Of a DNA stretch of 64,000 nt, positions 14,737 to 53,016 are shown piece after piece. Under the pieces are notes generated by a model. The model was not told where the DNA came from and searched no databases. It saw only the letters and a list, made by a program, of their open reading frames with translations. The position numbers were made by a program, and so were the translations under genes. The stretch's first letter is position 1, and every line of letters starts with the position of its first letter. The stretch comes from Bryopsis sp. KO-2023 (taxonomy: Eukaryota > Chlorophyta > Ulvophyceae > Bryopsidales > Bryopsidaceae), in NCBI GenBank assembly GCA_030272585.1, contig BSYQ01000008.1, positions 2,480,001 to 2,544,000 of the forward strand, in the 5' to 3' direction.

Positions 14737-14751
14737 CTCCCCTCCTCCCTT
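14737..14751 (-). other. Polypurine tract of element A
   Basis: On the minus strand AAGGGAGGAGGGGAG lies 10 bases upstream of the 3' LTR start. This is the expected primer site for plus-strand DNA synthesis. The 10-base gap (TGGTTACAGC) contains an inverted copy of the LTR end. Confidence 0.7.
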
Positions 14752-20164: not shown

Positions 20165-20355
20165 ATCAATCGCACGCCGTACACAATCTGCCTGGCATGT
20201 ATTCTCATTTCAGCCGCACGCCGCACACGGCCTGCCTGGCATGTCCACTTCACTTCCATAAAGATCAATCGCACGCCGTACACAATCTGCCTGGCATGTA
20301 TTCTCATTTCAGCCGCACGCCGCACACGGCCTGCCTGGCATGTACACTTCACTTC
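20165..20355. repeat. 99-bp tandem duplication inside element B
   Basis: Two nearly complete copies of a unit starting atcaatcgcacgccgtac and containing two gcacgccg...ctgcctggcatgt half-units. The same duplication occurs in copy 2 at about 48614-48804. Confidence 0.9.
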
Positions 20356-23300: not shown

Positions 23301-23429
23301 ATCAGAAGATCATAGACCACCTGATCCTGAAATCAATCTGAAGCTCACTACCTCTAAAGTCACTTCAATCAACCAACGAAATGATCAGATCACTCAAATG
23401 TAACCCTGCAAGCACGTAACACTCTTGCA

Positions 23430-24530: not shown

Positions 24531-24554
24531 CGTTTGTGATCTTGTCACAAGCCT

Positions 24555-24567
24555 GCTCCGAAACCAA
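24555..24567 (-). other. Primer-binding site of element B copy 1
   Basis: On the minus strand TTGGTTTCGGAGC follows immediately after the 5' LTR end. It begins with TGG, complementary to the CCA tail of a tRNA. The same 13 bases are at the same place in element A and in copy 2. Confidence 0.75.
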
Positions 24568-25196
24568 TGTAACGACTCTGCCCCTGCAGATCGCTTTTTC
24601 CACTCAAGTCCATCGAAGACTGCGACCCTGCCGGTCTGCCAGTCTGAAACTGCCGTTCTATTGAACGACCATGGGAGAAACACTTGAACCTAGCAAGGTT
24701 CAAGGAGAGATCAGGTTCCAAACTAAGGTTACAAGAATGTCCAAGCCCCCACAACTTATACCGTTTCTGCCAACCCTGATCCAAACTGATCCTAAGCCAT
24801 AACATCAGTCTGCATCAGTATTGCAGACCATCAAACTGCCAAGTCCCTTTCAGTCCCCTTTCATTCATGCAGCTCAGTCCACTTGCAGGTTCTGAGTCTG
24901 CCATCTAAGACCTTCTAGAACTTTGTGACTGCCAGCTCTGCAGCCCACGTTCTGCAGCGCTGCCAGCACCTGCCTGTCGTCAGCAACCTGTCAGCCCGAC
25001 TACTCTGCCATTTCGTCAGTCTGCCAATCTGCTGACTACCAGTCTATCAGTCTGCAGGTCTAAAGGACCTGAGCCATTCCTGCTTCTGCCGAATCATAGC
25101 AGTCAACCTGCAGCCTAATCTGTCAGCCCAATCACTGCCAGTTCTGCAAGCCTGCAGGTCTGCCTGAATCGCCTTTGATTCTGCCGAATCCTTACA
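24568..25196 (-). repeat. 5' LTR of element B copy 1
   Basis: 629 bp from TGTAACGACTCTGCCCC to GCCGAATCCTTACA. Same length as both LTRs of copy 2 and identical as far as read by eye. Short frames in it recur in every LTR copy and are not genes. Confidence 0.92.
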
Positions 25197-26918: not shown

Positions 26919-29900
26919 AAATCCGAAGTGGTATAGCTTATCACCTCACTCCCTCCTTTCCCTCCGGTTGCGGCCGTTGCTGCTGGCACTCCTGCGGCAG
27001 GCACTCCTTTCGGTCTCCATGCTTGTGCACTCTCCCGGAAGTAATCCAAAAGCTTTTTGAGCTCCTCCTTTTCTTGTTGTTTCAGTGCCTCCCGCCTCCG
27101 CATGTATTCCTCTGTTACACCATTCCTTCTCCCCTGTTTTCCTTCCCTTTGCAGTGTTTCCTCCAAACTCCCTTCGTTCTCTTTTTGTATTTTCAAATGG
27201 TGCCCTCTTCTTGCATCCAGTAACTCCATCTCTTGCTGGTGGAGGTGTGAGGCTGCTGCCTCACTCATCCCGTTCTCCCGACGCCTGGTGTAGCACTCTT
27301 GCAGCACCCTTGCTTGGTAGTATGTAAGCCGGAGGGTCGGTGGATGTCGACTGGCGGCGTTGGGCTGGTTCAGACCATCATGAGTCGTCCTTGAGTTCGG
27401 CTGCAAAAGTTCCCCGATAGAAGAGGGTGGTTGGGCTGGTGCAGGACTGGGTTCTTCGATGTGGCGGAGGGTCTGGTAGATCGAAACGACTGCAGCAGCT
27501 GCAGGCGTTACAGAGTGGATGAACTCGATCGGCACGCCACCCATGCGCTGTCCCGCCATGTACGGAGTGAGCTTTTTGCACCCGTAGTCGATTTCCGCCC
27601 CCGCTTCCCCTAGCCACGGAGTCCCAATGATCAAGGAGAAGTGGCTGTTCTCCACCACATGGCACGGTACCATTTGTTTGCTCTGCCCAAGGGCGATAGG
27701 TAGGGCAGGGATGTATCCTACTGCCTGCCGAGTCTCTCCATTGCAGTCCCGGTACCTTCCCTTTGGTGCCTCCATCAGATGTGTTAACCCCGTTTGTGCT
27801 AGGAGTTTTGCTGATATAACGCATGCACTCGCTCCGGTGTCAATGATTGCTCCTGGCACTTTGGTTTCCATCACTTTGGCTGTGGCTGTAGTGACTACAT
27901 ATGAGCTTGTCTTGTCCACTTCCGCCATGGTGGTAACTGCTGGGACTTTCGCCATGGGCACCCTTAATGCCTTCAGCCAAGCATCAATCAGCTCCGGATG
28001 ATGTTGACAGAGTTTGGCCACGGATACTTCCGCCGTCAATCCCTCCACAAACTTCTTGGCCTCCGCCTTAGTAAACATGCGCTTCTCCTTTGGCTCCACT
28101 GTTGATTTCTTGACCATCTTCTTTTTCTTTGCCATGGTATTTCTCGGCGATGGTACTTGCATCGGTCTATGCATCAATGGCAACATCACAACTGATTTGG
28201 ATCCTTGTGGCACATCTTCTGGTTTTGGCACACCTTCTGGTTTCGGCACATCTTCCGGTTCAAGCACTTGCTTTGGAATCTCTTTTGGCTCTTTCTTGGT
28301 TTCAGGGTCTGGCTCCTCTTTCGGTTCCTCCATTTCAACATCCTCTGTAGTGGTTGGTTGCGGATCTGAGGGTATTGGACTGGTATCCATCGGAGTCCCT
28401 CCATTGCTTCCTTCGACACTGTCCATTGCTCCGTTATCGACATCCATAGCAGAGTACAAGATTGATGCCAGAACTTCCTCTGGTTCCTCCATGGCTGCTG
28501 TCACTGGGTCGGTCTGCTCGAAATCCATAATAAACTCATCGTCAAGTTCTGCTTGGAAGCTCTGCACCCGGTTGGGACAATTTCTTCTGTAATGTCCAAG
28601 GTCTAAGCAATGCCAACACGTGACTTCGCTCATGTCTATCCTTCCACTCCTTCTCCTCCATTCATTTCCTCTGTTCCTTCCCCGGCCTCTTTCTCCATTG
28701 GTAAGTATTCCATCCGCTCCAGCGTCTTCAGTAATGCCATGGCTCACCCCTGCCAGCTCGGGTTCTTCCGATTGTCGCATATCTGCTACCCTTTCTGTCA
28801 AGGCGGAGATCATCCTCCTGAGTTCGCTATACTGCCGCCCAGATATTCTCACTTGCTGCTCCACTCCTCGAAGTCTTGAATCCGTCACAATTTTGTGATC
28901 ACGCATTTCCTTCCTTAGGCTGTCAATTTGCCCATTTACTCTCCGATCCATAACGCCCACTTCTGCCAAAACAGGCTCCAATGCTGCATGCTCCTGCAGT
29001 TCTCCCATCAGTTCGGTTGCTGGGACCGTCACTTCCTTCTGGGTGGAACTGGGGTCCACTTGTCTCTTCTCAACTTGTCCGGCTCTGGCACTGACTCCTT
29101 CCAAAGTATCCTCCATGGGTGCATGAAGTATGGGTGTCAACTCCCCCTGAGCTCCATCCTTGTTCGATCGAAGTAAGGACCCATCTGCCACGGCTGGATT
29201 GCCTGGTACTCTGTTCGCTTCCACTTGCTGTTGCCCTTGGGATGGCACAGATGTATACTCGTCCACTGTTTCATCACCCTTCCGGCTTTGCTCCAAGGTA
29301 TGGGCTACTGGTGTTGCTGGGGCAACTCCAAACCAGGCCAGCATGTCCGTTTGCAACTTCTGCCATGTCCTCAATGGGTTTGGCACTCCTTCCACAAGGG
29401 CTGGATGTCTGGCTACCCAATTGTCAACCCATGATCGAGCTTGACCGGCTGTATAGCGGACCAGTCTCTCTATCCTCTGATCTTCGTGTGGCTGCACTGT
29501 TGGGGGTACGTTCCAGCCTGAACCCGCAGCGAGAATCCCATAGGAGCGTAACCAGGTGGCCACATCTTCTGCCTCTGCACCCGTAAATGCGGGTAAATGA
29601 CTGTTAGTCAACCGATTAGGAAGTCCTTCTGCTGGATGTATCATGGCGCCGCCACTGCCTGGAGTCGGTGGACAAACTGGTGGTGGAACAGGAGGTCTTG
29701 GTGGAACGGGTGGAACAACTGGACCAGGTGGCACAATTGGAGGAATCTGGGGGAGACTGGCAGCAAAGGCAAATGGGTTCAGTGGTGGATGTACTGGGGG
29801 CACAGGCTCTTCCTCGAAACTAGAGGATGTCTCCCTCTTGTCTCTTTCCCCTTCAGGTTTGTCTTCGTCGGAACTGGAACTCGAGGGCTCTGATGGGTCA

Positions 29901-30586
29901 ACAAGAAAATCTGGCTCAAGACGCACAACACTGCCTTCAGGCCGGCTGACTGCATTAGGGTAACCAGTTCCTCCGGAGCCTGCACTGTTGGTAGCGCCTC
30001 CATTTCCTCCGTTCCCTGCAGCAACACTGCTCTCTTCTTCCTCTTCTTGTCTGACTTCTTCCTTAACCACAACTTCTGGCTCAACAAAGGCTTCCTCCTC
30101 TTCTTTGATCACTCGTCTTGCTTCGTCTTCTTCTTTTACTTCTTCCGCAAGCACTTCTTCCTCCTCTTGGACAACCTCGGCTTCTCCTTGGTCAGTAACG
30201 CCAACGAGGTTTCCTTCTTGTACCTCCCTTCCAGTGGGGTCAACACTTGCTTGCTCTTCTTCTTCTTTAACGACAGCAACCACTTCGTCGTCTACCTCTG
30301 CCCTCGTAACCTCGTCTCCAGCAGCTCTGTCTTCTTGTCTTGCTTCACGTTCTTCAGGAACACTCTCGACCATCACAACCTCTTTCTCGTCAACCTCGTT
30401 CACTTCCTCGTTGTCCCAGCCGCCAAGAAAGTCTTCCTTCAACACCCCTTCGTCGTCAACAAGACCAGCCTCAGAAAAAGCACCAACACTTCCTTGTGCC
30501 TCAGAAACCTCAACGTTCACTCCTTCTGCACCACCAAGGCCTTCTTCCTCGTTTGGTTCTTCTTCCTCGTTCACTTTTTCCGTCAA
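26915..30586 (-). CDS. Element A gag-protease polyprotein
   Basis: An open frame of 1223 codons. The N-terminal 250 residues are very Glu/Val-rich. A proline-rich segment (PPIVPPGPVVPPVPPRPP) follows, then a retrotransposon capsid-like region (LPAFTGAEAEDVATWLRSYG, RLVRYTAGQARSWVDNWV, WQKLQTDMLAWFG). Next are a CCHC zinc knuckle CWHCLDLGHYRRNC near residue 656 and an acidic and Pro/Glu repeat linker (KPEGVPKPEDVP). An aspartic protease has IDTGASACVIS near residue 914 and LIIGTPWLG. About 170 further residues end at TTTTTGA. The frame opens just after a TGA with no ATG; the first ATG is at 30373 (residue 72). Translation may start there or from a spliced leader. Gag packages the RNA and the protease matures Gag and Pol. 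Element B could borrow these products. Confidence 0.9.
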   Translation of the reverse strand: MTEKVNEEEEPNEEEGLGGAEGVNVEVSEAQGSVGAFSEAGLVDDEGVLKEDFLGGWDNEEVNEVDEKEVVMVESVPEEREARQEDRAAGDEVTRAEVDDEVVAVVKEEEEQASVDPTGREVQEGNLVGVTDQGEAEVVQEEEEVLAEEVKEEDEARRVIKEEEEAFVEPEVVVKEEVRQEEEEESSVAAGNGGNGGATNSAGSGGTGYPNAVSRPEGSVVRLEPDFLVDPSEPSSSSSDEDKPEGERDKRETSSSFEEEPVPPVHPPLNPFAFAASLPQIPPIVPPGPVVPPVPPRPPVPPPVCPPTPGSGGAMIHPAEGLPNRLTNSHLPAFTGAEAEDVATWLRSYGILAAGSGWNVPPTVQPHEDQRIERLVRYTAGQARSWVDNWVARHPALVEGVPNPLRTWQKLQTDMLAWFGVAPATPVAHTLEQSRKGDETVDEYTSVPSQGQQQVEANRVPGNPAVADGSLLRSNKDGAQGELTPILHAPMEDTLEGVSARAGQVEKRQVDPSSTQKEVTVPATELMGELQEHAALEPVLAEVGVMDRRVNGQIDSLRKEMRDHKIVTDSRLRGVEQQVRISGRQYSELRRMISALTERVADMRQSEEPELAGVSHGITEDAGADGILTNGERGRGRNRGNEWRRRSGRIDMSEVTCWHCLDLGHYRRNCPNRVQSFQAELDDEFIMDFEQTDPVTAAMEEPEEVLASILYSAMDVDNGAMDSVEGSNGGTPMDTSPIPSDPQPTTTEDVEMEEPKEEPDPETKKEPKEIPKQVLEPEDVPKPEGVPKPEDVPQGSKSVVMLPLMHRPMQVPSPRNTMAKKKKMVKKSTVEPKEKRMFTKAEAKKFVEGLTAEVSVAKLCQHHPELIDAWLKALRVPMAKVPAVTTMAEVDKTSSYVVTTATAKVMETKVPGAIIDTGASACVISAKLLAQTGLTHLMEAPKGRYRDCNGETRQAVGYIPALPIALGQSKQMVPCHVVENSHFSLIIGTPWLGEAGAEIDYGCKKLTPYMAGQRMGGVPIEFIHSVTPAAAAVVSIYQTLRHIEEPSPAPAQPPSSIGELLQPNSRTTHDGLNQPNAASRHPPTLRLTYYQARVLQECYTRRRENGMSEAAASHLHQQEMELLDARRGHHLKIQKENEGSLEETLQREGKQGRRNGVTEEYMRRREALKQQEKEELKKLLDYFRESAQAWRPKGVPAAGVPAATAATGGKGGSEVISYTTSDF

Positions 30587-31068
30587 GATCTTCTTTTTCC
30601 TTCAGCGCCGCCACAGATCTGAGTGGCAAGTCTCCCTTCTGGTCGCGATCCTTCTCTTTTACCCTCTGTTCTCCTCCAAACCTCGGATAAGTACTGCCCT
30701 TGCTTCTTTTTCCACCTTATGCAGTTCGTCACTCTTTCTTGTATTTGTTCTCGACCTTGCTGCAGCCCAAACAAGACAAAAGCGACCCAACAGCAGTTCT
30801 GACCTAACCTTAGGTTAAGATCCCACAAGATCCCGAAACCCACAAAGCTTTTTCGCCTTCTCTTTACCCTTGTGAGCGACACAAGCTCGACCTTGTACCC
30901 TTTTGAAACGTATCCACCCCTGTGGGTCCTTCTCTTCACTCTTGCAAGAGCTTCCTCCGTTTCTTTTTCTACTCTCAGGCCTTCCTCGTCCAGACTGCCC
31001 ACGTATAACGTCTGCCAGAGCCGTAGTGCACGTCTGCTGCAGCACAGCTGAAAAGTGTGCGCGCCTGG
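30587..31068 (-). other. 5' leader of element A
   Basis: About 480 bp between the primer-binding site and the Gag frame. A minus-strand frame ends at 30583, overlapping the first Gag codon by four bases (TTGA). It starts inside the LTR and has no recognised motif. It may hold packaging signals; none can be defined from sequence alone. Confidence 0.5.
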
Positions 31069-31081
31069 GCTCCGAAACCAA
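31069..31081 (-). other. Primer-binding site of element A
   Basis: On the minus strand TTGGTTTCGGAGC directly follows the 5' LTR. It is identical over 13 nt to that of element B and then diverges (CCAGG here, AGGCT in B). It is complementary to a tRNA 3' end of the form GCUCCGAAACCA. Confidence 0.75.
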
Positions 31082-31671
31082 CAAATTGCGTCGTCCTGAC
31101 CGCTGGGGTCACCCCTGCAGCGGGAGTAACGGTTGCAGAGTCGTTCTTTGCAGAAATGGAACGGAAGAAGTGGGGACAGCCCCTTTAAACGAAGCACTTG
31201 GGCACCCTCTCACAAGAAATGGGTAAACACGAGACCACACTCTTTCCAAAGATCTTACAAAGACCTCGAACCCAAAGAATACAACAGAAGAAGCAAAAGT
31301 CAGAAGTCCCTCCAATACCCTAAGATCAGCCACTTAAATAGGCTCTAGACTGACTCATCCCTGTCCCATTGATCGTCCATGATCCTAATCCCCGAGTAGA
31401 CAACCCAAGCTATCAAACCCATCTGATCCTTCAAAAGTATCCCTAGTCTATTCATACAGCACCACTTCCTAGGACTGTCCAACCTAGTCACAGCTGTAGC
31501 CAAATTGCTACCCCTAAACTGTGGCGGAACTGCCATGGCAGAACTGTCCCGGGGTGACTGCTAGCCCTACGTAATCCGTCCGGGACTGCCTCAAGCAGCA
31601 TTCCCTCCCCTGATATCACTCTAGCCCTGGAGGTGACAAAATTGGTCGAGGCGACGTGGTTTGGGGTTACA
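31082..31671 (-). repeat. 5' LTR of element A
   Basis: 590 bp, ending at the outer target duplication CATACC (31672-31677). It pairs with 14137-14726. Its inner edge lacks the terminal tgtaacca found on the left LTR. Confidence 0.9.
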
Positions 31672-31827
31672 CATACCTTCCCACATTTTCCATGACAAAC
31701 ACAAACAAAAAATTCTCCCCCTCTTTTTCTTTTTCTTCTTGATTATATTTTGGGGGATTTTTAAGAGATTCTCACAATTCGGTTCCAACAGAAAAAAGAA
31801 AAAAAAAAATTGAAAATTTGATTTGCG

Positions 31828-33300
31828 ACACATGGCCGTGTTTCACGCCGTCGTAATGATAAAAGGAGATATTGTCCCACAAATTCTCGATTCTCGACAC
31901 ATGGCCGTGTTTCACGCCGTCGAAGTAATGAATCGAAGGGATTTCCCACCCATCGCACCGACTCGATTCTCGACACATGGTCGTGTTTCACGCCGTCGAA
32001 GTAATGAATCGAAGGGATTTCCCATCCATCGGACCGACTCGGTTCTCGACACATGGCCGTGATTCACGCCGTCGAAGAATGAATCGAAAGGATTTCCCAC
32101 CCATCGGACCGACTCGATTCTCGACACATGGCCGTGATTCACGCCGTCGAAGTAATGAATCGAAAGGATTTCCCACTCATCGGACCGACTCGATTCCCGA
32201 CACATGGCCGTGTTTCACGCCGTCGAAGTAATGAATCGAAAGGATTTCCCACTCATCGGACCGACTCGATTCTCGACACATGGCGGTGATTCACGCCGTC
32301 GAAGTAATGAATCGAAGGGATTTCCCACCCATCGGACCGACTCGATTCTCGACACATGGCGGTGATTCACGCCGTCGAAGTAATGAATCGAAGGGATTTC
32401 CTACCCATCGGACCGACTCGATTCTCGACACATGGCCGTGATTCACGCCGTCGAAGAATGAATCGAAAGGATTTCCCACTCATCGGACCGACTCGATTCC
32501 CGACACATGGCCGTGTTTCACGTTGTCGAAGTAATGAATCGAAAGGATTTCCCACTCATCGGACCGACTCGATTCTCGACACATGGCGGTGATTCACGCC
32601 GTCGAAGTAATGAATCGAAGGGATTTCCCACCCATCGGACCGACTCGATTCTCGACACATGGCGGTGATTCACGCCGTCGAAGTAATGAATCGAAGGGAT
32701 TTCCTACCCATCGGACCGACTCGATTCTCGACACATGGCGGTGATTCACGCCGTCGAAGTAATGAATCGAAGGGATTTCCTACCCATCGGACCGACTCGA
32801 TTCCCGACACATGGCCGTGTTTCACGCCGTCGAAGTAATGAATCGAAAGGATTTCCCACTCATCGGACCGACTCGATTCTCGACACATGGCGGTGATTCA
32901 CGCCGTCGAAGTAATGAATCGAAGGGATTTCCTACCCATCGGACCGACTCGATTCTCGACACATGGCCGTGATTCACGCCGTCGAAGAATGAATCGAAGG
33001 GATTTCCCACCCATCGGACCGACTCGATTCTCGACACATGGCGGTGATTCACGCCGTCGAAGTAATGAATCGAAGGGATTTCCTACCCATCGGACCGACT
33101 CGATTCTCGACACATGGCCGTGATTCACGCCGTCGAAGAATGAATCGAAAGGATTTCCCACTCATCGGACCGACTCGATTCTCGACACATGGCGGTGATT
33201 CACGCCGTCGAAGTAATGAATCGAAGGGATTTCCCACCCATCGGACCGACTCGATTCTCGACACATCATGGCCGTGTTTCACGCCGTCGACGAAATGAAT
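31828..33300. repeat. 76-bp satellite array, about 19 copies
   Basis: The unit is gaagtaatgaatcgaaggg, then atttcccacccatcggaccg, then actcgattctcgacacatgg, then cggtgattcacgccgtc. Most units are 76 bp; some are 75 bp (gaagaatg). Variants alternate between ggcggtgattcac, ggccgtgattcac and ggccgtgtttcac, and between cccacccatc, cctacccatc and cccactcatc. The edge units (31828-31900 and 33270-33300) are the most divergent. Because 76 is not a multiple of 3, the many overlapping frames on both strands are artefacts. The array ends about 135 bp before the transposase ATG. Confidence 0.95.
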
Positions 33301-33435
33301 TGAAATTGTCGATGCTAATTAGTCTTTCTAAGTAGATAATAGGAATATATTAATAGGAATATTTTCTTTCTGTTCGCGCTTGTTATAGTAACATTATTGA
33401 CTAAACTTGTATTGCATTTTTTGCTTCCTTGCAGA

Positions 33436-36400
33436 ATGCAATCAACAAATCAGGACAGATGGAAAGTTACGCACGGACAACGACGTGGCATAGTTCTTCT
33501 TGACCGCTCCTATGGGAGAATATACCAAGTCAATAAGGACACCAAAAAAGTCATCTATTGGAGATGTGCTACGTTCAAGAATACGGGGTGTCGCGCCACA
33601 ATCAAATCGCATGGTGGAAGAACTAACCCTACTATTGACGATTCTCGGCTTTCTGATACTGACCACACATGCGGCCCACCTGATTTTGACCTGGTTGAGG
33701 TGTATGAATTGAGGACCTCAGTACGAGAGAACGTTCAGAGAGACTTACACGTGCCTGTACCCAGAATAATACGAGATGTGGAATCAAAAGCTTCACAGAA
33801 TGGGGTCGCTATGAGGTTTGGAGGGGTGCGGAGGATGGGGTCCATGGCATACAACACGAGGCGAAAAATGTTTCCACCGAATCCGAAAAATGCCTTCGAC
33901 GTAGATATACAAGGTAACTTTGATGAATGGCTTTGTTAGGAATGTCCTTGCTGTTCGGGATGCGCCAGATTCTTCAGTTCGCTGCAGTTTGATCATTTGG
34001 TCCGATCTAAACAACTTCGATTGCATTAGGACGAGGTCTTTCCGTCACTCTCTGACGTATCTCCTTACCAAGGATAAATTACCTGACTATAATAACTTTT
34101 TCAAGACTGTGAGCACTTACTCCCTTAAGTTTTCAAGCTTCATTTCAAACGAGTTGATGACAGGAACATGAAAATGTATTACCTTCATCATGTCATCGTT
34201 TGTGTTGTTGTGGACGGAGTGCATATCCATAATTGTTTTTTTGCATCACCTATGAGGTCGATGGTGTAGTTGCCGTTTGCATGTGTTGCCCTATTTTGTT
34301 TGGAATAAAAATAGAAAAAAACCTCCCATTCCACTTCAACCATCTCGTTCAAGATAAAGTAGTCAAGGCAAGCGTAGAAGGAGCAATTTTATAATCTAAT
34401 TATGGATACGCCGGTAATAAGTTATTATTTTTATGAGAAAATAGCGGCTGCTTCCTTCTTCGCCACCTTTTTGGGAGGTCCCCAAGCACCATGTCCTCTC
34501 TTCATCTATACGTACCTCCAAACACGAACCCCAACATTCGCTCCCCCCTTACGAAAAAGAGTATGAAAACTCACTAATGAGTTGCGGTTAGAATCGGCCC
34601 TGGTTCCAGTCAGACAAGTTCGCCGGACCTGATAGCTTCTGGAACCTATCTAAACCGGTTAAATTTGGACCGACGGACCTGTGTACACTCTAGACCAGTC
34701 CACACGGCTCGTGAACAAATTCAGACAGATATGTTCCAACATAATGCATTGGTCTAGACCGTCCAAACTTGTTGAACTTGTCAAGTCCGGTCCAATCTTT
34801 CTAGCGGTGATACGTCGTGTGGTCGTACATGATCGTTGTAGTACGGGATTCTAGGGGTTAAGTTGAAAGAGAACGCTTGTCAACTTAATTCTCTGGCACT
34901 TGTGTCTTCGTTTCACACTGTACCTCACTACCTTGCTTGATGTGAGAGTAGTCTATCAACGAGGTTTTTTTTATTTTTGGTATTGTTGTTTCACACAGGC
35001 GACATGGCAAACACGTTGGGTGGTGATGCCTTTCATCTCGCGACCATTGACTACGTGCGAGCAGGGACAAACCAACGGGTTGTTTTGTTTGCAACGGAGA
35101 GGAACATTTGCAAGCTCGCATCAACCGACAGATGGTTCATGGACGGGACTTTCAAAACGTCACCCCCCCAATTTACTCAGATCTACACTATCCACGGGGA
35201 GTTTTCGGGTTGGGTGCTTCCTTTGGTGTATTGTTTATGTACCGAAAAAACTTTCGAGTGCTATCAAAACATCATGCAGGAACTTATAAAGAAAGCTCAC
35301 AATATGGGTTTGGTGTTGGACCCGGACTATGTCACCTGTGATTTCGAAGCCGCTGCAATCTCCGTCATTCAAGCTCTTTTCCCGAGTGCAAGAGTTCACG
35401 GATGTTTGTTTCATTATTGCAAAGCAATATGGAAACGGATTCAAACTGAAGGATTACAACAGGACTATGTCAGGTCTAATGATGTACGCAAAGCGTTCCG
35501 ACTGTTCTTCGCGCTCCCATTCCTCCCTATCAATGACTTGAAAGATGGGTTGAAGGTTTGCTATGCGGAGTGTGTTTCAAAGATGGTGTTGAACCATGGT
35601 AAGTCCTAATTTTTTTCAAGGACACTTTTTCCATTTGAGTGATCCTCTAAGATTTACGGGTATCATTAATAGCAAACTTACAACACCATTTTTAGAACAA
35701 TTATTATCTATTCACAATACCCCATTTACGAATAAAATAAAATTAATACGATAAGATAGATTAAGGTAAGAATGAGGTAGAAGACACGTGCTACACCAGT
35801 TGTGTGAGGTAATTTTGAGAAACGTATTCTTAATTTTGCGGTGCCTAGGAACAATTCTTATTTCACTCTCTCCTTGCCGAAAATCAACCACAAAATCAAA
35901 CCATCTCTCATTCTTTTTTGTTTCTTAACGTAGGTGTTGATGGTGCAAAAATGATGAGATTTTGGCAATACTTTCTGAACACGTGGATGAAGCGATATCT
36001 CCCCGAAATATGGAATGTGCACGACTTCAGTGGCCACAGAACAAACAATAATTTGGAAGGGTGGCATTCCAAGATTGGAAAGATTTGCGGGACCCACTCC
36101 TCGATTTGGAGATTGATAACTCAACTGAAAAAAGAAGAAAGTCAAGTTCAGGGTTACATGGCACGACAAGAAAGTGGAGAAACCTTGGAGCCTCAAAGAA
36201 AATACAAGAGGTAAAAACTTTATCCACTCTTGTAACAAATCATAACTCAAAAGAATTTCCTTACTTTCGTAATGCTTATAGTCAATAGGCTCTCAAGCAG
36301 AGTTGTGCCGACGTCGTTTTTGCGACAACGACAACGGCCGTTAACCGTTAACGCCGTTAACGGTCGTTGTCGTTGTCGCAAAAACGACTTCGGCACGACT

Positions 36401-38689
36401 CTAACACATTTTTTTATGATGTGATGTGACTCCTAAAACGAGCAGCCACCAAAGCGCGAGCGAACCTCGCTGCTTAGTGACTATGGTGTGATGCAGATAT
36501 GTGCGCCGTTGCAACGGCGCACAACTCTGCTCTCAAGTACTCACAAAAAAATATAGATCTTCCCTAATTAGTTATGGTTATATACTTAAGTAGGATATTC
36601 CGAATATCCTATATCATAATCTGGGAGTCGGAGGTTTCTCTATTTCGTTCTATTTGATTCGTTCTTATCTTCCGTGGGTGGCTTGATTGTGTTTACCTCC
36701 GAATACTCTTAATCATTGGAATGAAAAGGGTTTACACGAATGATACCGGAATAACGTTAGAATTCACTATTTGCAGGGTTAATGAGAACATTCACACTTT
36801 GAAGATTCGCTTGGCTCAAGGATCTATTGGTGTTGAAGAATACCTCGAGAATATTGCACTCAACCTCCCGGAGTTCTTTCCACCGAAACATCAACATTCG
36901 CAAGCTCCTTCGGCAAGCCAAGTGCGAGACTGAGTTCCACCTTCATAACAGCGCCTTGTTTCCCCAAAATTCTCGCCAATTAATACGACCATTTGATATC
37001 TCTAATGAGACTAACATATATAAAATTGATTTTTCCCAGGTCCCAAGCCAGCCTGCCGGGAGCCAGCTTGCCCTGAGCCCGCCCGCCTTGAGCCCGCCTG
37101 CCCTGAGCCGGTCTGCAGTGAGCCGGTCTGCCGGGAGCCAACTTGCCCTGAGCCAAGGCCAGCGCGCCATGAGCCCGCCTTCCCTGAGCCGGTCTGCCGT
37201 GAGCCGGTCTGTCGGGAGCCAACTTGCCCTGAGCCCGCCTCCCCTGAGCCCGCCTGCCTTGAGCCCGCCTACCCTGAGCCCGCCTACCCTGAGCCAAGGC
37301 CAGCGCGCCATGAGCTCGCCTTCCCTGAGCCGGTCTGCCGTGAGGCAGTCTGCCGGGAGCCAGCTTACTCTGAGCCCGCCTGCCTTGAGCCCACCTGCCC
37401 TGAGCCCGTCTGCCCTGAGCCAAACACCATCAATTGCGTCAAAGATCCACAAAAGGCAAAACGTAACTCCTGCTCTTATTGGGAATTCTTTTTTGCAAGG
37501 GTCAATGCAACCTTACATGTCCTTGACGCAAACGAGCTTTGCTTCACGGGTGTCAAGGACGCCAAGTCCAACACTCCCTTCACCGGCACCGACACCGACA
37601 CCTACCTCCACACAAGTATCGGCAACCGTTTCTACCCAACCCTCAACAGTAAGGAATTTCTTCACATCGAAACATTGATATATAAAAAAAATATTTCCCC
37701 ACAACTTTTCACTACTTCTGTGAGTTCCTTATAATACCTCAATACATTTACCTTATTTAATGTATTAATTCTGCTTTCTTGGTGCAAAATACAGAGCTTA
37801 ATACACAAAATCTCAAATTTCTTAAATGTTCTTTTTTGTGGCTTCACAGTTCTTGGGCTTCAATAATAAACAAAACTCGTGTGGACACGACTCCTTCACT
37901 GTGTTGATGGCAAATATCTTGCCGACGGGAACAAAACTCACTCACTCTTGGGGAGTGCAAATTGACAAGTACATGGACCTAATCTCCCAAGGGGCGGTCA
38001 CCAAAAAGGCGCTGGAAGAAATTCAAACCAAGATATTCCGATGTGTGGAGCGCGAGTACGTGAAGTTTGACCCAAGTTGGACCCATGGAAGCTTCACATC
38101 AGCAGATGTCTTGTGGAGACTCATTGCAAAAGAAGGCAGGAAAGCAATTGAGTGCTTCGCCCACGAAATCAGAGAGTATGGGAAGTGTAAAGGGTGCAAG
38201 CACCGAGTGAGACTTGCTTCACCAGAAGAGATCGACTTCCACATTACTCCTGACATGATGGGAGAAGTTGCAAAAGGTGGAACTTTTTGTCTTCAAGATG
38301 TTGTGGACCTCGCAAGAAAGCCTCGCGATGTCTTTTGTACAAATTGCGGGAAACCTATGCATGTCAACCGGGATATCGCCAAAGTTCCCAAAATATTTTG
38401 CTTGACCTTAGATAAGGTTCAAGGCAACACCTTCACGGCTAACGCAGTGGGAAAGTCTACCTCTGTTATTCCGATAATATGCGACCCTTTGAATTTCTTT
38501 GACAAGGTTTGTGACCTCGTCGGGATTCACTACTGCTCGGGAGCTCACCACTGGGTAGAATTCCTTATTCAGGGAACAGGGTGGTTTCATTATGATGATA
38601 TGGCGTCTGGATCATGGCGATTCATCGGGAAAACACATTCCCCAGTATCTGGAACAATTTGTTCATTATTTTTTGAAGTTCAGGGATAG
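33436..38689 (+). CDS. FLYWCH - MULE transposase - USP-like peptidase fusion, six exons
   Basis: My model is join(33436..33913, 34999..35598, 35934..36210, 36777..36921, 37040..37648, 37850..38689). All borders are GT/AG, phases 1,1,2,0,0 match, and it totals 982 residues without a stop. Residues 41-79 form a FLYWCH zinc finger (YW, C44, C52, H77, C79). The Mutator-like transposase has D208 (RWFMDGTF), D274 (TCDFEAA), the CxxH pair C295/H298 and E401 (TNNNLEGWH). Residues about 501-640 are a Ser/Pro linker encoded by a 15-bp minisatellite. The last exon is a USP (family C19)-like domain: Cys box NSCGHDSF with C714, finger pairs C816/C819 and C866/C869, His box AHHWVEFL (H937), and GWFHYDD with D952/D953. 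Binding to transposon ends, DNA cleavage and possible removal of ubiquitin from bound proteins are inferred. Alternatively the USP part is a separate gene starting at ATG 37826, which reads through the intron. The first intron is 1085 bp with no gene seen. No terminal inverted repeats were found. Confidence 0.85.
36298..36529. mobile_element. 232-bp hAT-type MITE in intron 3 of the transposase gene
   Basis: Ends CAGAGTTGTG...CACAACTCTG are inverted. They are flanked by the 8-bp duplication CTCTCAAG at 36290-36297 and 36530-36537. CAG-starting ends and an 8-bp duplication are hallmarks of the hAT superfamily. The left part is a near-perfect inverted repeat of about 50 bp per arm (gtgccgacgtcgtttttgcg against its complement, around gttaacg). 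The right end adds a perfect 22-bp palindrome (gtgcgccgttgcaacggcgcac). There is no coding sequence. Confidence 0.92.
37050..37425 (+). repeat. Coding minisatellite, 15-bp unit (Ser-Pro-Pro-Ala-Leu)
   Basis: Units of agc ccg cct gcc ctg and variants encode SPPAL, SRSAV, SQLAL and SPPTL pentapeptides. Two copies of QGQRAM punctuate a higher-order unit of roughly 170 bp. It lies within exon 5 of the transposase fusion and keeps the frame, because every unit is a multiple of three. It probably makes a flexible, disordered linker between transposase and peptidase. Confidence 0.9.
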
Positions 38690-39719
38690 ACTTTGAAAGA
38701 GGGTATGATGTGATCGGAAAACGTTCTTGGTGAGGACTGATCGGGTCCAATCATTGATAGCTTTGTTTGCACTTTTACAATCAAACAAGCTTTCTCAAAA
38801 AACGAATTTTCTTCGAGGGGACAAACAAAAGGTGCAAGGCATTTTCTTTCATAAATTGATTCAGGGTAAGCAGCGATAACGATCCACCTAATCTGATTTT
38901 ACGGTTGGGTCTTTTGTTATTTTTCTTTCTATTTGGTTGTTTTAAACATTGGTCGGGAAACATTTCTCAGGGGCGTTTTTTGCTTAGATTTTATCTTCCC
39001 TCCCCTTCCTTTTTGTGCTCTGGTTGGTCTTCTTAAGAGTTTACTCGAGAATCGTGGGTCGGGGCTGGTTCATTGTGTTTCAAAGGGTTTGGGACCCTTT
39101 GTTACGGCCCTAATTTTTTTTTTTCCGGATTTTCAAGTGGAGAGTGAACGGGTATTGATCTGAGGGATCAAGAGAGAACCTAAGAAACAAATGATTAAAG
39201 GGTTGATATGTTGTAGTTTTCTTTGGCGGTGATATGTCTGAATGAAAGCAATAGTGTAAGGCCTTCTTGGTAGCCTTGAGGGCGCACAGAGCATGTAACA
39301 CGTGTCAAGCAATAATCAATCTATGTTACCGCTCGGGAGGACTGACGTCCGCGAGTATAGTAAGTATATACCCTATTGATAGTAGGGTGTGTGGTGGAAA
39401 TAAATTTTCTACATACTCCCTGTAACGATGCAGAATTGGACCAGTACTACTGGCAGTTCTACCCTGAGAAGGGTCCAACCACAACTATCACAACTGCTAC
39501 TGCAGCAGCTAAGAATACTGCTGAACAAATAGTTCCAGAAGATGTAGCAAGGAATGGGGATGAGCAAGTAATGACTGCTGCAGGCATCATTACGTCGAGG
39601 AGTTAATTGTAACAGTCACAAGGGGAAAACACTTCGACACACGAAACAAAACGAAACCTTACACGAACACCAACAACAAGACAACCGCCGCCGACTCCTT
39701 AAACCCCAAGCAAGCCTAA
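38690..39719. other. Region downstream of the transposase fusion, no gene recognised
   Basis: T-rich stretches and a frame at 39376-39606 (DQYYWQFYPEKG then Thr/Ala-rich) that I cannot assign. No right terminal inverted repeat matching the 31.8-33.4 kb side was found by eye. Confidence 0.45.
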
Positions 39720-39785
39720 TCCGCGGCACTGGCGTAGTGCCTAGGACTCCAGCCGCGGATGTCCCTGGTTCAAATCCCACTAACT
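39720..39785 (+). repeat. tRNA-derived (SINE-like) module 1
   Basis: An A-box-like word tggcgtagtgcctagga at 39730-39746 is followed 20 bp later by the consensus B box ggttcaaatcc at 39767-39777. This is the spacing of an RNA polymerase III internal promoter. The sequence does not fold as a standard tRNA by eye and is probably a SINE head. Confidence 0.6.
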
Positions 39786-39974
39786 ACTGCCCCATTCTAC
39801 ACCTCCTGTACCCCTCCCTCGACTCCACTCTAACCTCACACTCACGTCACATCAGTCACCCCGCGGGTCACATCGTGAGTCAATTCAATCCCCTCCCATT
39901 ACTCCCGAATCTCCCGAGAGCGACACCTATTACCTAATCCGGTATATAGGCGCCCTCTCCCCCAAGTTAAAATA

Positions 39975-40060
39975 AGAAGCGAACTCAGGACACCTGGCTC
40001 AGAGTAGAATACATCCATTCCGGCCCAGGTGGCCTGAGTTCGAATCTCAGCCACTACCAC
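39975..40060 (+). repeat. tRNA-derived (SINE-like) module 2
   Basis: tggctcagagtagaa at 39995-40009 resembles an A box. agttcgaatct at 40037-40047 matches the T-loop/B box consensus with one change at each end. A second, different tRNA-like unit 200 bp after the first suggests a composite SINE or two insertions. Confidence 0.5.
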
Positions 40061-40089
40061 CACTAATCCCACACCTAAAGAATTGCTAC

Positions 40090-40235
40090 AGTCACATCGG
40101 TCTAAAACAGGTGACACCAGTATGACCGGTACTAGACATGGAACCGGTCTAAAACAGGTCACACTAGGCGTCACACCGGTCTAAGACAGGGTCACACCGG
40201 TCTAAAACAGGTCACACCAAAATGACCGGTACTAG
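40090..40235. repeat. Short dispersed repeat ACCGGTCTAAAACAGGTCACAC
   Basis: Four copies of cggtctaa(a/g)acaggt(c/g)acac, plus two copies of atgaccggtactagac, interleaved within 150 bp. Possibly the tail of the preceding SINE-like unit. Confidence 0.75.
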
Positions 40236-40240
40236 ACAGG

Positions 40241-40975
40241 CGCTAGTTCCCTGCGGGAGCGGTGCCCCCACCGCTCCCCTCATCACGTGATGCGCTGATC
40301 GCATCACTCTTAATCATTTGGAAACGCCGCTGTAGAGACTCGAATTTCAGCGTTTCCTGTTCGTGTGGGGGTGGGCAGCCTGCGGGGGTTTCGACGTCCA
40401 GCGCACGACGCACTCGTCGAATAAGGGCGCGTGGGGCGCGTGGGGGTCGCGATCTCCTCAGCAAAAAGAAAAATCACGTCTCGGCTTCCACGGCCGCGGT
40501 CCGCGATTCCATCCTCCTCTGGAGGGCATCCTCCTCTGGAGGGTGTGGAGGGTTTTCTTCCTCACTCTATACCGGCATATTGCACTTGATTTGGTGTGCG
40601 GACTTTTCTTCAACAGGTTTTTCTGCCCGAGGGTTTTACCACAGTGTTCTCGCGCGTTTTATTTTCGAAAAGAAAACTACAGGCGAAAGAAAAAACGGTC
40701 GGGAGAGTCCGCGCGAAACGAGCGAGCATAGGCTTTGGAAGTCGCGCTGCGGACGGCGTCTTGGCACGTCACAGTCGCACTCGATCCGCCTCCTGTCAAG
40801 CCCGGACGACGCCTGCAAAGTCTAAACCCCTGGACAACGTTTGATGTGGCCTGGAAACTCCTTCCGCTCGCGTCTCACAACCTTACAACCTCAACCTCGT
40901 CCTTGATATCTCGAAAGCGCTTGAAAGAAACCACGCTACAGCCATTCTTCCAAAAAATGACCATAAGTCCATTAT
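40241..40975. other. GC-rich unique stretch before the satellite
   Basis: Frames up to 187 codons (starting at GTG) are open but show no domain. It begins with a cluster of short palindromes: gggagcggtg/caccgctccc at about 40255-40280, catcacgtgatg at 40281-40292, and gtgatgcg/cgcatcac. It ends with a 10-bp stem ccataagtcc/ggacttatgg at 40961-40986, exactly at the satellite border. No gene can be supported. Confidence 0.45.
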
Positions 40976-43900
40976 GGGACTTATGGGCAATCCTTGATTT
41001 TCCTAGAGTAAATTTCTCCACCAAAGTGGAATCCGACGCGGCAGCCCACATATACATTTTTTTGTTCTAATTTTTGGAACACCGAGATTTTGAAATGTGT
41101 CAAACACATCATTCGAGTTTCGAAAGAAAACTCTCCCTAGGGTGAGACTTACAGGTAATCCATGAAAAAACCTGATTTTCCTAGAATGAATTTCTCCACC
41201 AAAGTGAAATCCGACGTGGCAGCCCACATATACATTTGTTTGGTCTAATTTTTGGAACACTGAGATTTTGGGATGTGCCAAACACATCATTCGACTTTTA
41301 AAAGAAAATTCTCCCTGAGGTGAGACTTACAGGCAATCCTTGATTTTCCTAGAGTGAATTTCTCCACCAAAGTGGAATCCGACGTGGCAGCCCACATATA
41401 CATTTGTTTCGTCTAATTTTTGGAACACTGAGATTTTGATATGTGCCAAACATATCATTCGAGTTTCAAAAGAAAACTCTCCCTGAGGTGAGACTTACAG
41501 ACAATCCTTGATTTTCCTAGAGTGAATTTCTCCACCAAAGTGGAATCCGGCGTGGTACCCCACATATACATTTGTTTGATCTAATTTTTAGAACACTGAG
41601 ATTTTGGAATGTGCCAAACACATCATTCGAGTTTTAAAAGAAAACTCTCCCTGAGGTGAGACTTACAGGCAATCCTTGATTTTCCTAGAGTGAATTTCTC
41701 CACCAAAGTAGAATCCGACGTGGCTGCCCACATATACATTGTTTGGTCTAATTTTTGGAACACTGAGATTCTGGAATGTGCCAAACACATCATTCGAGTT
41801 TCGAAAGAAAACTCTCCCTGGGGTGAGACTTACAGGCAATCCTTGATTTTCCTAGAGTGAATTTCTCCACCAAAGTGAAATCCGACGTGGCAGCCCACAT
41901 ATTTATTTGTTTGGTCTAATTTTTGAAACACTGAGCTGAGATTTTGGAATGTGCCAAACACATCATTCGAGTTTCGAAAGAAAACTCTCCCAGGGGTGAG
42001 ACTTATGGGCAATCCATGAAAAAACCTGATTTTCCTAGAGTGAATTTCTCCACCAAAGTGGAATCCGGCGTGGTACCCCACATATACATTTGTTTGGAAT
42101 AATTTTTAGAACACTGAGATTTTGAAATGTGCCAAACACATCATTCGAGTTTCAAAAGAAAACCCTCCCTGAGGTGAGACTTAGAGGCAATCTTTGGTTT
42201 TCCTAGAGTGAATTTCTCCACCAAAGTAGAATCCGACGTGGCTGCCCACATATAAATTGTTTGGTCTAGGTTTTGGAACACTGAGATTCTGGAATGTGCC
42301 AAACACATCATTCGAGTTTCGAAAGAAAACTCTCCCTGGGGTGAGACTTACAGGTAATCCATGAAAAAACCTGATTTTCCTAGAGTGAATTTCTCCACCA
42401 AAGTGGAATCCGACGTGACAGCCCACATATTTATTTGTTTGGTCTAATTTTTGGAAAACTGAGATTTTGGGATGTGCCAAACACATCATTCGAGTTTCGA
42501 AAGAAAACTCTCTCTGGGGTGAGACTTACAGGCAATCCAAGAAAAACCCTGATTTTCTTAGAGTGAATTTCTCCACCAAAGTGGAATCCGACGTGGCAGC
42601 CCACATATACATTTGTTTGGTCTAATTTTTGGACCACTGAGATTTTGGGATGTGCCAAACACATCATTCCAGTTTCGAAAGAAAACTCTCCCTGGGGTGA
42701 GACTTATGGGCAATCCATGAAAAAACCTGATTTTCCTAGAGAGAATTTCCCCACCAAAGTGGAATCCGACGTGACAGCCCACATATACATTTTTTTGGTC
42801 TAATTTTTGGAACAATCAGATTTTGAAATGTGCCAAACACATCATTCCAGTTTCGAAAGAAAACCCTACCTGGGGTGAGACTTATGGGCAATCCATGAAA
42901 AAACCTGATTTTCCTAGAGAGAATTTCCCCACCAAAGTGAAATCCGACGTGGCAGCCCACATATACATTTGTTTGGTCTACTTTTTGGACCACTGAGATT
43001 TTGAAATGTGCCAAACACATCATTCGAGTTTTGAAAGAAAACTCCGCCTAGGGTGAGACTTATGGGCAATCCAAGAAAAGCCCTGATTTTCTTAGAGTGA
43101 ATTTCTCCACCAAAGTGGAATCCGACGTGGCAGCCCACATATACATTTGTTTCGTCTAATTTTTGGAACACTGAGATTTTGACGTGTGCCAAACACATCA
43201 TTCCAGTTTCGAAAGAAAACTCTCCCTAAAGTGAGACTTATGGGCAATCCATAAAAAAACCTGTTTTTCCTAGAGAGAATTTCCCCACCAAAGTGAAATC
43301 CGACGTGGCAGCCCACATATACATTTTTTTGGTCTAATTTTTGGAACACCGAGATTTTGAAATGTGTCAAACTCATCATTCGAGTTTCGAAAGAAAACTC
43401 TCCCTAGGGTGAGACTTACAGGTAATCCATGAAAAAACCTGATTTTCCTAGAGTGAATTTCTCCACCAAAGTGGAATCCGACGTGGCAGCCCACATATTT
43501 ATTTGTTTGGTCTAATTTTTGGAACACTGAGCTGAGATTTTGGAATGTGCCAAACACATCATTCGAGTTTCAAAAGAAAACCCTCCCTGAGGTGAGACTT
43601 ACAGACAATCCTTGATTTTCCTAGAGTGAATTTCTCCACCAAAGTAGAATCCGACGTGGCTGCCCACATATACATTTGTTTGGTCTAATTTTTGGAACAC
43701 TGAGATTTTGGAATGTGCCAAACACATCGTTCGAGTTTCGAAAGAAAAATCTCCCTGGGGTGAGACTTACAGGTAATCCATGAAAAAACCTGATTTTCCT
43801 AGAGTGAATTTCTCCACCAAAGTGGAATCCGACGTGGCAGCCCACATATTTATTTGTTTGGTCTAATTTTTGGAACACTGAGCTGAGATTTTGGAATGTG

Positions 43901-44494
43901 CCAAACACATCATTCGAGTTTCAAAAGAAAACCCTCCCTGAGGTGAGACTTACAGGCAATCCTTGATTTTCCTAGAGTGAATTTCTCCACCAAAGTGGAA
44001 TCCGACGTGGTACCCCACATATACATTTTTTTGGTCTAATTTTTGGAACAGTGAGATTTTGGAATGCGCCAAACACATCATTCGAGTTTCGAAATAAAAC
44101 TCTCCCTAGGGTGAGACTTATGGGCAATCCAAGAAAAACCCTGATTTTCTTAGAGTGAATTTCTCCACCAAAGTGGAATCCGACGTGGCAGCCCACATAT
44201 ACATTTGTTTGGTCTAATTTTTAGAACACTGAGATTTTGGAATGCGCCAAACACATCATTCGAGTTTCAAAAGAAAACTCTCCCTTGGGTGAGACTTACA
44301 GGCAGTCCTTGTTTTTCCTAGAGTGAATTTCTCCACCAAAGTGAAATCCGACGTCGCAGCTCACATATACATTTGTTTGATCTAATTTTTAGAACACTGA
44401 GATTTTGAAATATGCCAAACACATCATTCGAGTTTCGAAAGAAAACTCTCCCTGGGGTGAGACTTACAGGCAATCCTTGTTTTTCCTAGAGTGA
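40976..44494. repeat. 168/178-bp satellite array, left block
   Basis: About 20 monomers containing gtgaatttctccaccaaagt, then ggaatccgacgtggcagccc, then acatatacatttgtttggtc, then aacactgagattttggaatg, then cattcgagtttcgaaagaaa and gtgagacttacaggcaatcc. Monomers are 168 bp or 178 bp; the longer type has a 10-bp insertion giving ccatgaaaaaacctgatttt. Some carry a 5-bp duplication (gagctgagatt). The recurring 74-102 codon minus-strand frames are repeat artefacts. The block ends where element B copy 2 is inserted (target AGTGA). Confidence 0.95.
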
Positions 44495-45132: not shown

Positions 45133-48100
45133 ATCTAGTTGGCAGTAGTCCCTTACTGCCCTAAGAGAACGATAACAACCTTGTCCCTTGGATTTCAAAT
45201 ACCCAAAGGAACCTCTGCCTCAAAGTTCAGTTTGAAAAGTTGCTATCCCATCTTGTCAACTACCAAACACCTTTTGGAAGGACTGACCAACTGAAAATAT
45301 CCTTTCGAAAAATATATGCTTCTTTCTCAACATTCTGGAGCATACCTCTGAATTGCCTAGAAAACTACTCAGAAAAATCCCAATAACACAAATAAGAAAA
45401 CCGAAGAACTTCCCTTTCGGAATTGTAATGTGCTACTGAACAAAATTCAATTCCTTTCCGCAGCCTATAAACTCCATAGATTTTAATATTGACTATTTGA
45501 GAAGCCAACAGAAAAATAGCAAAAATCTGCTGCAGCTTTTAGAGTCTCAGCAATTCACCTTTCTGCTCAAATATCGTTTTTCAATGATAAAAGAAAGACA
45601 CCAAATATTTTTCAACTACCAAAACTTCTGAAACTTCATGTTGTTCCTTAATTTCTAACTCAACATTTGCATATTGAAAACGTGCAAACTGTCACCACCA
45701 CAGTCTGCAAATTATTTCTGCAACTATTGCCACAGTCTGCAACCCTGCAAACTGGTACTGCCACAGTCTGCAACCCTGCAAACTGGTACTGCCACAGTCC
45801 AGAACTCTACAAACTGCTGCTGCCAAAATTTGCAACTAAGCAAAATACCACTCTCACAATATGCAAGCTGTCTCGGAAATTTCTCTATGGTAGAAAGAAC
45901 TTCAGCCATTCAACCTTTTCCTTTTAAACAAAGGGATAAGATTCCAACCTTTTGAAAACCAAGAGATCAGCAATCACTCCAGCAGCTCCTCAGAGTTGAA
46001 GCTCCTTGCTGCATAGGGATCTGCAACATGTCTCCCGCAATCACTCCAGCAACTCCTCAGAGTTGAACCTCCTTGCTACATAGCGAGCTGCAACACGTCT
46101 CCACCAAGATGGTCTTCCGCATAGCAATGCAAAGAAAACGATAGGATCTTGCAACAAGTCTCCAGATCTTCTCTAATGAAGAGGTGAGCTTGCTCATCAA
46201 TTTTTGCTGAAGCATGCTCCCTCCTGTTCTTGCTTCCTCTCTCCTGAGTCATGAATGTTCAGAGTACCTACAGATTGATTCCATTAATTGTTCCCGAATT
46301 CCTCTATGTCTTCTCCGGTTTTCCCATATACGAATCTATACAAATCAGAACATATGGAAACCCAGAAATTCCACTTGACCTATCCTGACTTAATGAAATC
46401 AACCCTTTCTTTCAACCAACAAGACTTCACTCAGTGATATTTCCTTTTTCTTTTTAACTCTGCTGCTCAAATAAATATCCCACAACTGAGTGCTGAAAGA
46501 ATCCATACCAATGTACTTTCTGAAATTCAATAACCTCAAGTAAGCATCAATCTAACTGATTCAATCAATGGTCATGCAAACTTCTGTAAATTCCAAATCA
46601 ACTGAATCCACAGCAAAATATGTGTCGTGAACCAGAATATTTCAGTCCACCAGAAACACCCTTGCTAAGACTGCAAATGTTTAATTCTGCATCGTCCTAA
46701 AGTAGTGAACTATGCTTAGTTCCTTAATCCACTCTGCAAGAACAGTAGAACTGAAAACACATATTTACTGACCACCAAGATATTGCAAACACTATCCATC
46801 AATTCCCATCTTCTCTGAAAGAGTACTACTAACAACCTCTTCCTTTCCTTAGAAACCTTGATGAAAACATGTGTCTCTTTGCAACACCTACTGAAATAAA
46901 TGCAATTTTGGAAAAACAAAAACGAAACGCATCGGTTCAACCGAGGCCCCCTCCCCATCTGAAATGGAGCTTGTCCTCAAGCAAAACCATGCAACCATGC
47001 AAAACCATATCACTGTCCCAGCTACAGAAAGTTGAGCTGTTCGGAGCAGTCAAATGACCCCAAACAACTGAACAAACTACTTCAGAAAACAAGCCTGAAA
47101 AACTGAAGGCCTGAATTTGCTCTGCCAAAGTCAGAATAATCTGCTGCCCCAGATTGTAACCAAATGTTCAGTTCTCAACCTTTCTGATATAAAAATATAC
47201 ACCAACTATGCCACCAAAGATCAAGGCTATTTCTGATTCATTTATCAGGAAATAAATAGAAAATAAAGAAAACACAGAAAATTTTGCAGCCCTGCCAAGT
47301 GTCCCTGCAGCTAACAGGTTCTGTACCTGCAATGTACCAACTGCCCATAACATTGCCAGATCTGCCTGCAAAAATTTTCACAGTCCCTTGTGTTTCTTTC
47401 TATGTAGAGCTGAACCTGACCATCGAATGTCATAACCTTCAGCCCCTGATCTTTGACACCAGAACACTAATGCCCATTGTGTTTACTATAACGTCATGAA
47501 ATAAGAGAGCTGCCAACTCATGATACTTCATGTCCAACCTCTGCAAACAAACTCAAGAAGAAATTCATCTGAAAATCTGGATCGTGCCTGAAAATCCGAG
47601 AAAACCTTTCTTTTCTTCTCTACCTCTGCGGATTTCCACTGACTCAAACACCAAATCAGAGATAGATCCTCAGAAACTCTTTGTATTTCGTAGAATCTGA
47701 AAATCTTTTTACTTTTCCTTATGAGCTTTATATTTCTCACTATTTCTCCATGTAGTCGAAGAAATCAGAAATATACACTCCACTCCTGATTTTCGTTCTT
47801 AACCTCCTGAAAATCTTAACCTCCTGAAAATCTGCAACTCAAACCAGATCTAATGTATCGAATCAAAATAAAGCATTTTCCAGATTTCAGTCACTGCCAA
47901 TTAAGTCCAAAAGTGACTGCAACAATACCAACTTCTGTCACTGAAAATTGCTATCTCCGATGCAGTTTGACACAACCATATCTTTCACAGGGAACCCTGA
48001 ATTTCCCTCAGAAAATTTTCAGCTCAACAACCAGTCTATGGACCTGTAAAATAGAAATCAGAGTCCTCCTTTCAAGCAAAAACTGCAACTCCATCTGCAG

Positions 48101-53003: not shown

Positions 53004-53016
53004 GCTCCGAAACCAA
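53004..53016 (-). other. Primer-binding site of element B copy 2
   Basis: TTGGTTTCGGAGC on the minus strand, immediately internal to the 5' LTR; same as in copy 1 and element A. Confidence 0.75.

Follow-up and report, generated by a model that had tools for sequence, protein, structure and literature searches.

The 64,000-nucleotide stretch of Bryopsis sp. KO-2023 analyzed here (the window, positions 2480001-2544000 of contig BSYQ01000008.1, hereafter C8) contains a gene, at 33436-38689 on the plus strand, through which a giant Mutator-like element (MULE), a DNA transposon, probably encodes both a transposase and a divergent deubiquitinase domain of the ubiquitin-specific protease (USP) type, joined by what looks like a flexible repeat linker. 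This reading rests on an open spliced frame with complete sets of DDE transposase and USP landmarks, on a unit bounded by terminal inverted repeats (TIRs) and holding captured host segments, on a second copy of the gene, and on sister MULEs that carry ULP1 exons or lie next to an ovarian tumour (OTU) exon.

The gene model comprises six exons, all introns being GT-AG and the exon phases (1, 1, 2, 0 and 0) compatible, which together give a stop-free frame of 982 residues. Its parts are as follows, in window positions:
33436-33913, plus strand: exon 1, with the start ATG and a FLYWCH zinc finger (residues 27-59); donor aag/gtaact, phase 1
34999-35598, plus strand: exon 2, the MULE DDE domain, with D208 (35142-35144), D274 (35340-35342) and C295/H298
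35934-36210, plus strand: exon 3, with the third catalytic residue, E401 (36056-36058)
36777-36921, plus strand: exon 4, the end of the transposase region, phase 0; tblastn similarity to the sister MULEs L001 and L005 extends here
37040-37648, plus strand: exon 5, a linker rich in Ser, Pro, Leu and Ala, with 15-bp tandem units (Tandem Repeats Finder, 37046-37421, period 15)
37850-38689, plus strand: exon 6, the predicted USP-type (C19-like) peptidase, with C714 (37880-37882) and the DD pair from 38594
38549-38551, plus strand: second His of the HHW motif in exon 6

When nearby alternative sites were combined (exon-2 donor, exon-4 donor and exon-5 acceptor), two of the 12 combinations stayed open to the final stop, with 982 and 978 residues, and a later exon-1 donor at 33935 likewise preserves the frame. 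The transposase part is recognized by Pfam in single exons: PF10551 (MULE) with E 7.4e-14 (52.4 bits, cut-off 27.6), and PF04500 (FLYWCH), on exon 1 alone, with E 8.7e-6 (26.3 bits, cut-off 23.6), the latter falling just at its cut-off on the full protein (23.6 bits). The DDE set is complete, D208, D274 and E401 being accompanied by C295xxH298 between the second D and the E, residues that presumably have the roles usually assigned to them in MULE transposases. A first-pass annotation, made from the sequence alone, had proposed six exons with matching phases, a FLYWCH finger and a DDE transposase with all catalytic positions, and the splice sites, Pfam scores and residues agree with it on each of these counts. 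Domestication as a host gene was considered and rejected, given the complete DDE set, the repeat context and the TIR-bounded unit.

Exon 6 displays, in this order, C714, CKGC (816-819), CTNC (866-869), HHW (936-938) and WFHYDD (948-953). Its Cys box, GFNNKQNSCGHDS, aligns with the Cys boxes of host, P0001 and viral USPs and has the form G..N..N[ST]C...S that we take to be the USP consensus; the two CxxC finger pairs lie between the Cys and His boxes and are aligned with USPs, and H937 and D952-D953 align with their GHY...DD. All the elements first claimed for this domain are present (Cys box, two CxxC pairs, His box and DD pair), but the last had been called terminal, whereas it is part of the His box, with about 30 residues still to follow before the C-terminus. 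Against a five-USP profile exon 6 scores 8.2 bits, exceeding 5000 of 5000 shuffles and 208 of 208 control open reading frames (drawn from loci that overlap, and not independent in every case; L076, L079, L080, L009, L010 and L039 were left out), and a three-USP profile is only suggestive, 42 of 3000 shuffles scoring as well. Neither Peptidase_C48 nor OTU is among the seven Pfam families listed for exon 6 at E<=10, in a search whose filters drop most matches above about 0.1; elsewhere the same library goes over cut-off, with C48 for one exon of the MULE L044 and with OTU for an exon of the MULE L043. The landmark order, the five-USP profile and the lack of a listed C48 match bear out the earlier view that the last exon is USP-like rather than ULP1-like, and support its assignment as a predicted, divergent USP-type (C19-like) peptidase.

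Database searches for homologues of this domain came up empty. With the full protein, region 700-982 included, the homologue search gave 616 candidates, none at E<=1; exon 6 alone gave 139 candidates and no homologue, seven pattern matches in viral contigs, none confirmed, and no match in NCBIfam. The host USP as query found two database proteins and two viral loci, and when it was aligned with two database USPs, none of the 85 pattern matches obtained in viral contigs was confirmed as a relative. The intact host USP exon, used as a positive control, retrieves USPs from the PDB at once. A motif pattern reached by 0 of 200000 shuffles was discarded, because it had been composed from the general USP consensus with the query already in view and because the host USP fails it. 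Matches to Transglutaminase-core (E 0.011) and to a MAP-kinase-interacting kinase (E 0.33) were rejected as short and below threshold.

A search of the genome (91 Mb, 28 contigs) for further copies with both domains found one, on the minus strand of C12, with the transposase region at 1386325-1389104 and the last exon at 1375097-1375933. The two copies differ at one of 2340 positions across exons 1-4 and 6, and substitutions for comparing exons with introns are few in number. The gene had been described as intact, which holds for the copy on C8 but not for that on C12, whose exon 5, the linker, is broken by two insertions. One is an LTR (long terminal repeat) element whose 517-bp LTRs are identical to each other and which is accompanied by a 4-5-bp duplication; the other measures about 470 bp and comes with a duplication of 8 bp. 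Beyond these copies, the protein search lists two weak USP-like matches, both on C2 (by tblastn, one is 59% identical over 29 residues, with 27 more at 41% in a shifted frame, and the other 61% identical over 23 residues). Compared with exon 6, differences at first, second and third codon positions number 8, 6 and 18 in the first stretch of L011 and 6, 4 and 12 in L012, mostly third positions, and 11, 10 and 10 in the second stretch of L011, with no third-position excess. Among the transposase fragments on C2 identity reaches 60% (47 residues), against 27-35% for the other intact MULE frames. Together, the C2 relics and the closer transposase fragments suggest that the MULE-USP family is probably no newcomer to this genome. 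MULE fragments cluster on C2 (14 of the 34 listed, 11 of these 14 with internal stops), where both weak USP-like matches lie as well, and this contig is possibly a graveyard of the family.

The copy on C8 lies within a much larger unit, whose left part is in the window:
4321-4330, no strand: 10-bp direct repeat GTGGCCCCAA, left copy; its right counterpart, outside the window, is at C8:2554887-2554896
4346-4553, plus strand: left TIR, with 15-bp units such as AGTCCGAATGCCGTA
4814-8177, plus strand: captured segment 1, with a Na+/H+ exchanger exon (PF00999, E 2.1e-17)
8176-11759, plus strand: captured segment 2, with an FHA exon; 91% to C3:7244225-7247758
11760-13074, plus strand: captured segment 3; 84% to C6:2836019-2837378

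TIR positions 12-208 have their inverted partner at C8:2554667-2554862, with 97% identity, and the unit bounded by the 10-mer measures 70.6 kb, later insertions included. The target duplication of a MULE would measure 8-11 bp. A shared 10-mer arises by chance in such flanks in 778 of 200000 random pairs; the 8-mer GAAAAAAC, nearer the ends, is an alternative duplication, of a length common by chance (261 of 5000). The segments meet at sharp joins (8176/8177 and 11759/11760). Positions 5039-8177 resemble C11:3897002-3900474 (80-91%), and parts of segment 1 recur on C17 and in six elements of about 15.3 kb with the same ends, whose exchanger segments are at 93%. With two more of about 12 kb, these make eight shorter units with the same ends in facing pairs, as judged from positions; on C1 (11163925-11194497) two of the 15.3-kb units are neighbors in mirror orientation, with about 50 bp between them. 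Long inverted ends around segments like several host loci form the pattern of Pack-MULEs, so that the C8 unit is, by appearance, a giant Pack-MULE.

The genome search found 13 MULE places, two of them the MULE-USP copies, and the flanks of three more were read. In L044 (C7), of which there is a copy of equal score on C10 and another of nearly equal score on C5, the transposase is followed by a long repeat linker and by exons in which a WLND motif was seen by eye, one of these exons being that with the C48 match. In L043 (C13), FLYWCH and MULE are over cut-off and the OTU match lies upstream of the transposase, on the same strand and in another frame. L045 (on C12; positions 5369-9881 of the L045 locus) is a compact MULE of about 4.5 kb with an open transposase frame of 415 residues, ends of 15-bp tandem units of the same design as those of the giant unit, and a 12-bp direct repeat, GTTAGAAGGGAT, common to its flanks; no peptidase was seen by eye among its sense-strand frames of at least 90 residues, the transposase alone having been scanned with profiles, and it is possibly a minimal relative. 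The sister MULEs thus appear to carry ULP1 (C48) exons or to adjoin an OTU exon, their joining in one transcript being putative.

Several observations weigh against the reading of a giant MULE that encodes a transposase with a USP-type domain. The Cys box of exon 6 was left unaligned in one pairwise run, and the residue after the nucleophile is Gly715 and not Tyr, which USPs usually, though not universally, have at this place. In the profile comparison with C19 and C48, the C19 family (Pfam UCH) reaches 14.0 bits, below its cut-off of 23.9, so we file exon 6 as USP-like and not as a curated C19 member. The AlphaFold model is weak (pLDDT 51) even with USP rows in the alignment; the 50 Foldseek matches listed for it are USP, USPL1 and SAGA/Ubp8 entries, a circular result since USP rows had fed the model, and a single-sequence model was of no use, its fold search giving no match at E<=0.001. 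As for the unit, 26 and 24 bp separate the GTGGCCCCAA copies from the part of the TIR common to both ends, the C12 element has no full right end but a 44-bp remnant, and the sequence past the C12 satellite was not found on C8 among the 131 matches listed (39 of 80 candidates scored). Finally, the frame of exon 6 holds its own ATG at 37826, upstream of 37850, and that of exon 5, stop-free to its donor, runs on to a stop at 37678 if read past it. A MULE transposase gene ending at 37678 could therefore adjoin a separate USP-like gene starting at 37826, just as the OTU exon of L043 sits beside its transposase in another frame. This arrangement is improbable, as only about 150 bp lie between stop and ATG and the splice signals are good (donor aca/gtaagg, a T-rich acceptor ending in ttcacag, matching phase 0); on these grounds one gene is favored, and the transposase and the USP-like domain likely form one protein.

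The last exon could also be a USP-fold enzyme acting on SUMO (of the USPL1/C98 type) or on another ubiquitin-like protein instead of ubiquitin. The Gly after the nucleophile, the ULP1 domains of other MULEs, here and elsewhere, and the USPL1 structures ranking 2, 5, 7 and 13 among the Foldseek matches of the weak model all point that way, but Peptidase_C98 has no match in the genome at E<=10, nor is it among the Pfam families listed for exon 6 after filters that drop most weak matches, and the two CxxC pairs are as in classical fingers; we consider it rather unlikely. It is distinctly improbable that the peptidase has no catalytic activity and acts solely by binding ubiquitin or as a structural part: its Cys and His boxes are divergent, with HHW in place of GHY, but the Cys, two candidate His and the Asp-Asp are all kept, and two of the three relic stretches show a third-position excess. 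As to the unit, the MULE-USP gene could be a passenger, captured or inserted like the host segments, in 70 kb of DNA moved by another transposase. No MULE match listed overlaps any of the eight shorter units, in searches that scored the best candidates only, and of the 31 inverted pairs in 31600-41100, the 25 listed include no long TIR pair flanking the gene more tightly. Yet L045, with its own transposase frame, has ends of the same design and a direct repeat, and elements devoid of transposase and moved in trans are typical of Pack-MULEs, according to a passage of PMC6431247. The passenger scenario thus seems unlikely to us.

If the giant MULE does encode a transposase with its own deubiquitinase domain, the transposase would bind the ends of its unit and move it by cut-and-paste, and may also move the short relatives of the unit, the flexible linker giving the peptidase access to ubiquitin attached to the transposase or to proteins at the site of cutting. 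The tethered peptidase could strip ubiquitin off the transposase itself, which would then be spared degradation, or off chromatin or repair proteins at the cut site. The first of these, self-stabilization, evenly poised in our view between true and false, is somewhat likelier than local editing, which we consider possible but doubtful; this ranking is a judgement, not a measurement. The local idea is close to what the Ginger authors propose for Ulp1 and OTU in a passage of PMC2836005. The presence of peptidases of three classes on or beside these MULEs suggests that the elements survive better by altering ubiquitin-type tags of the host. A use against host control, which the first-pass annotation had also proposed, would be speculative.

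The remainder of the window is rich in repeats, two of them near the gene:
31886-33304, plus strand: 76-bp minisatellite, whose end is separated from the start codon by 131 bp
14132-31671, minus strand: LTR retrotransposon, a later insertion with 596-bp LTRs (99.8%) that C12 lacks at this site; another element is nested within the retrotransposon

The LTR element at 25050-30601 (minus strand) has frames for reverse transcriptase, RNase H and a gag-type aspartic protease. An LTR-type element of 8458 bp is present twice with 100% identity, nested in the retrotransposon at 14132-31671 (16740-25197) and between satellite arrays (45189-53646), through either very recent activity or duplication. The satellite, of 168-178 bp, occupies 40995-44476 and 53646-64000, interrupted by the LTR element, and has fragments on several other contigs. 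The stretch of about 484 bp at 39607-40090 resembles a solo LTR and has copies of 97-98% at no fewer than 14 places, several of them in pairs separated by about 7 kb. A protein kinase exon (2256-3269, minus strand) lies immediately beyond the left boundary of the giant unit.

Why so many DNA transposons carry ULP1 or OTU could be approached in this genome, where three peptidase classes on or beside sister MULEs offer a natural comparison. It is a real possibility, if one short of probable, that three sister MULE lineages independently acquired three unrelated peptidases of ubiquitin or its relatives (ULP1/C48, OTU and USP-like C19), the USP bearer being a giant Pack-MULE that transports chimaeric host DNA tens of kilobases long. 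If so, the removal of ubiquitin or a relative would be a convergent requirement of MULE transposition, and not a chance domain capture; and if each peptidase supports transposition or transposase stability, what counts would be deconjugation itself rather than a particular enzyme family. How large cut-and-paste elements can become is a further question on which the setting in a giant Pack-MULE has a bearing.

Two plant MULEs named in the first-pass annotation, Kaonashi and CUMULE, reportedly carry ULP1-like (C48) proteases. The Trichomonas vaginalis protein XP_001314237.1 carries Transposase_11, a domain we take to be of the DDE type, joined, as the transposase here probably is, to a Peptidase C19; it differs in that Transposase_11 is not MULE. 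The passage of PMC2836005 that presents this protein makes no mention of FLYWCH, and the paper also places Ulp1 on Mutator elements of hydra, lancelet, Arabidopsis, maize, rice and melon and on Ginger, and OTU on Ginger and Helitrons. With the Mutator elements, and with L044 and its repeat linker, our gene shares a MULE transposase accompanied by a peptidase of ubiquitin or its relatives, but here this is USP-type, with the Cys box first and CxxC fingers. Ginger1 likewise bears a C-terminal deconjugating peptidase, OTU or Ulp1, on an integrase-type transposase (same paper), so that both partners are of other classes. Closer to L043 is MuDR-6_HM, a MULE with an ovarian-tumour gene, hence with OTU in place of USP, named in a MULE survey that also lists SET as an extra feature (PMC6446971) and whose main text nowhere contains the words ubiquitin, protease, peptidase or ULP. 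Our unit resembles Pack-MULEs in its long inverted ends around segments from several host loci and in its relatives without detected transposase, and differs in carrying a MULE gene and in size, the first-reported Pack-MULEs including none above 7 kb (in a passage of PMC6431247), against about 15.3 kb and, with later insertions, 70.6 kb here. No MULE with a USP domain appeared among the titles and abstract openings listed in a literature search, Repbase and most subscription papers lying outside it. The first description of this architecture as not a standard one therefore holds for MULEs within the literature searched, but not for the general theme: as far as we searched, a MULE with a USP-like domain is a new pairing among transposons already known to carry ULP1, OTU and, in one protein, C19 with Transposase_11.

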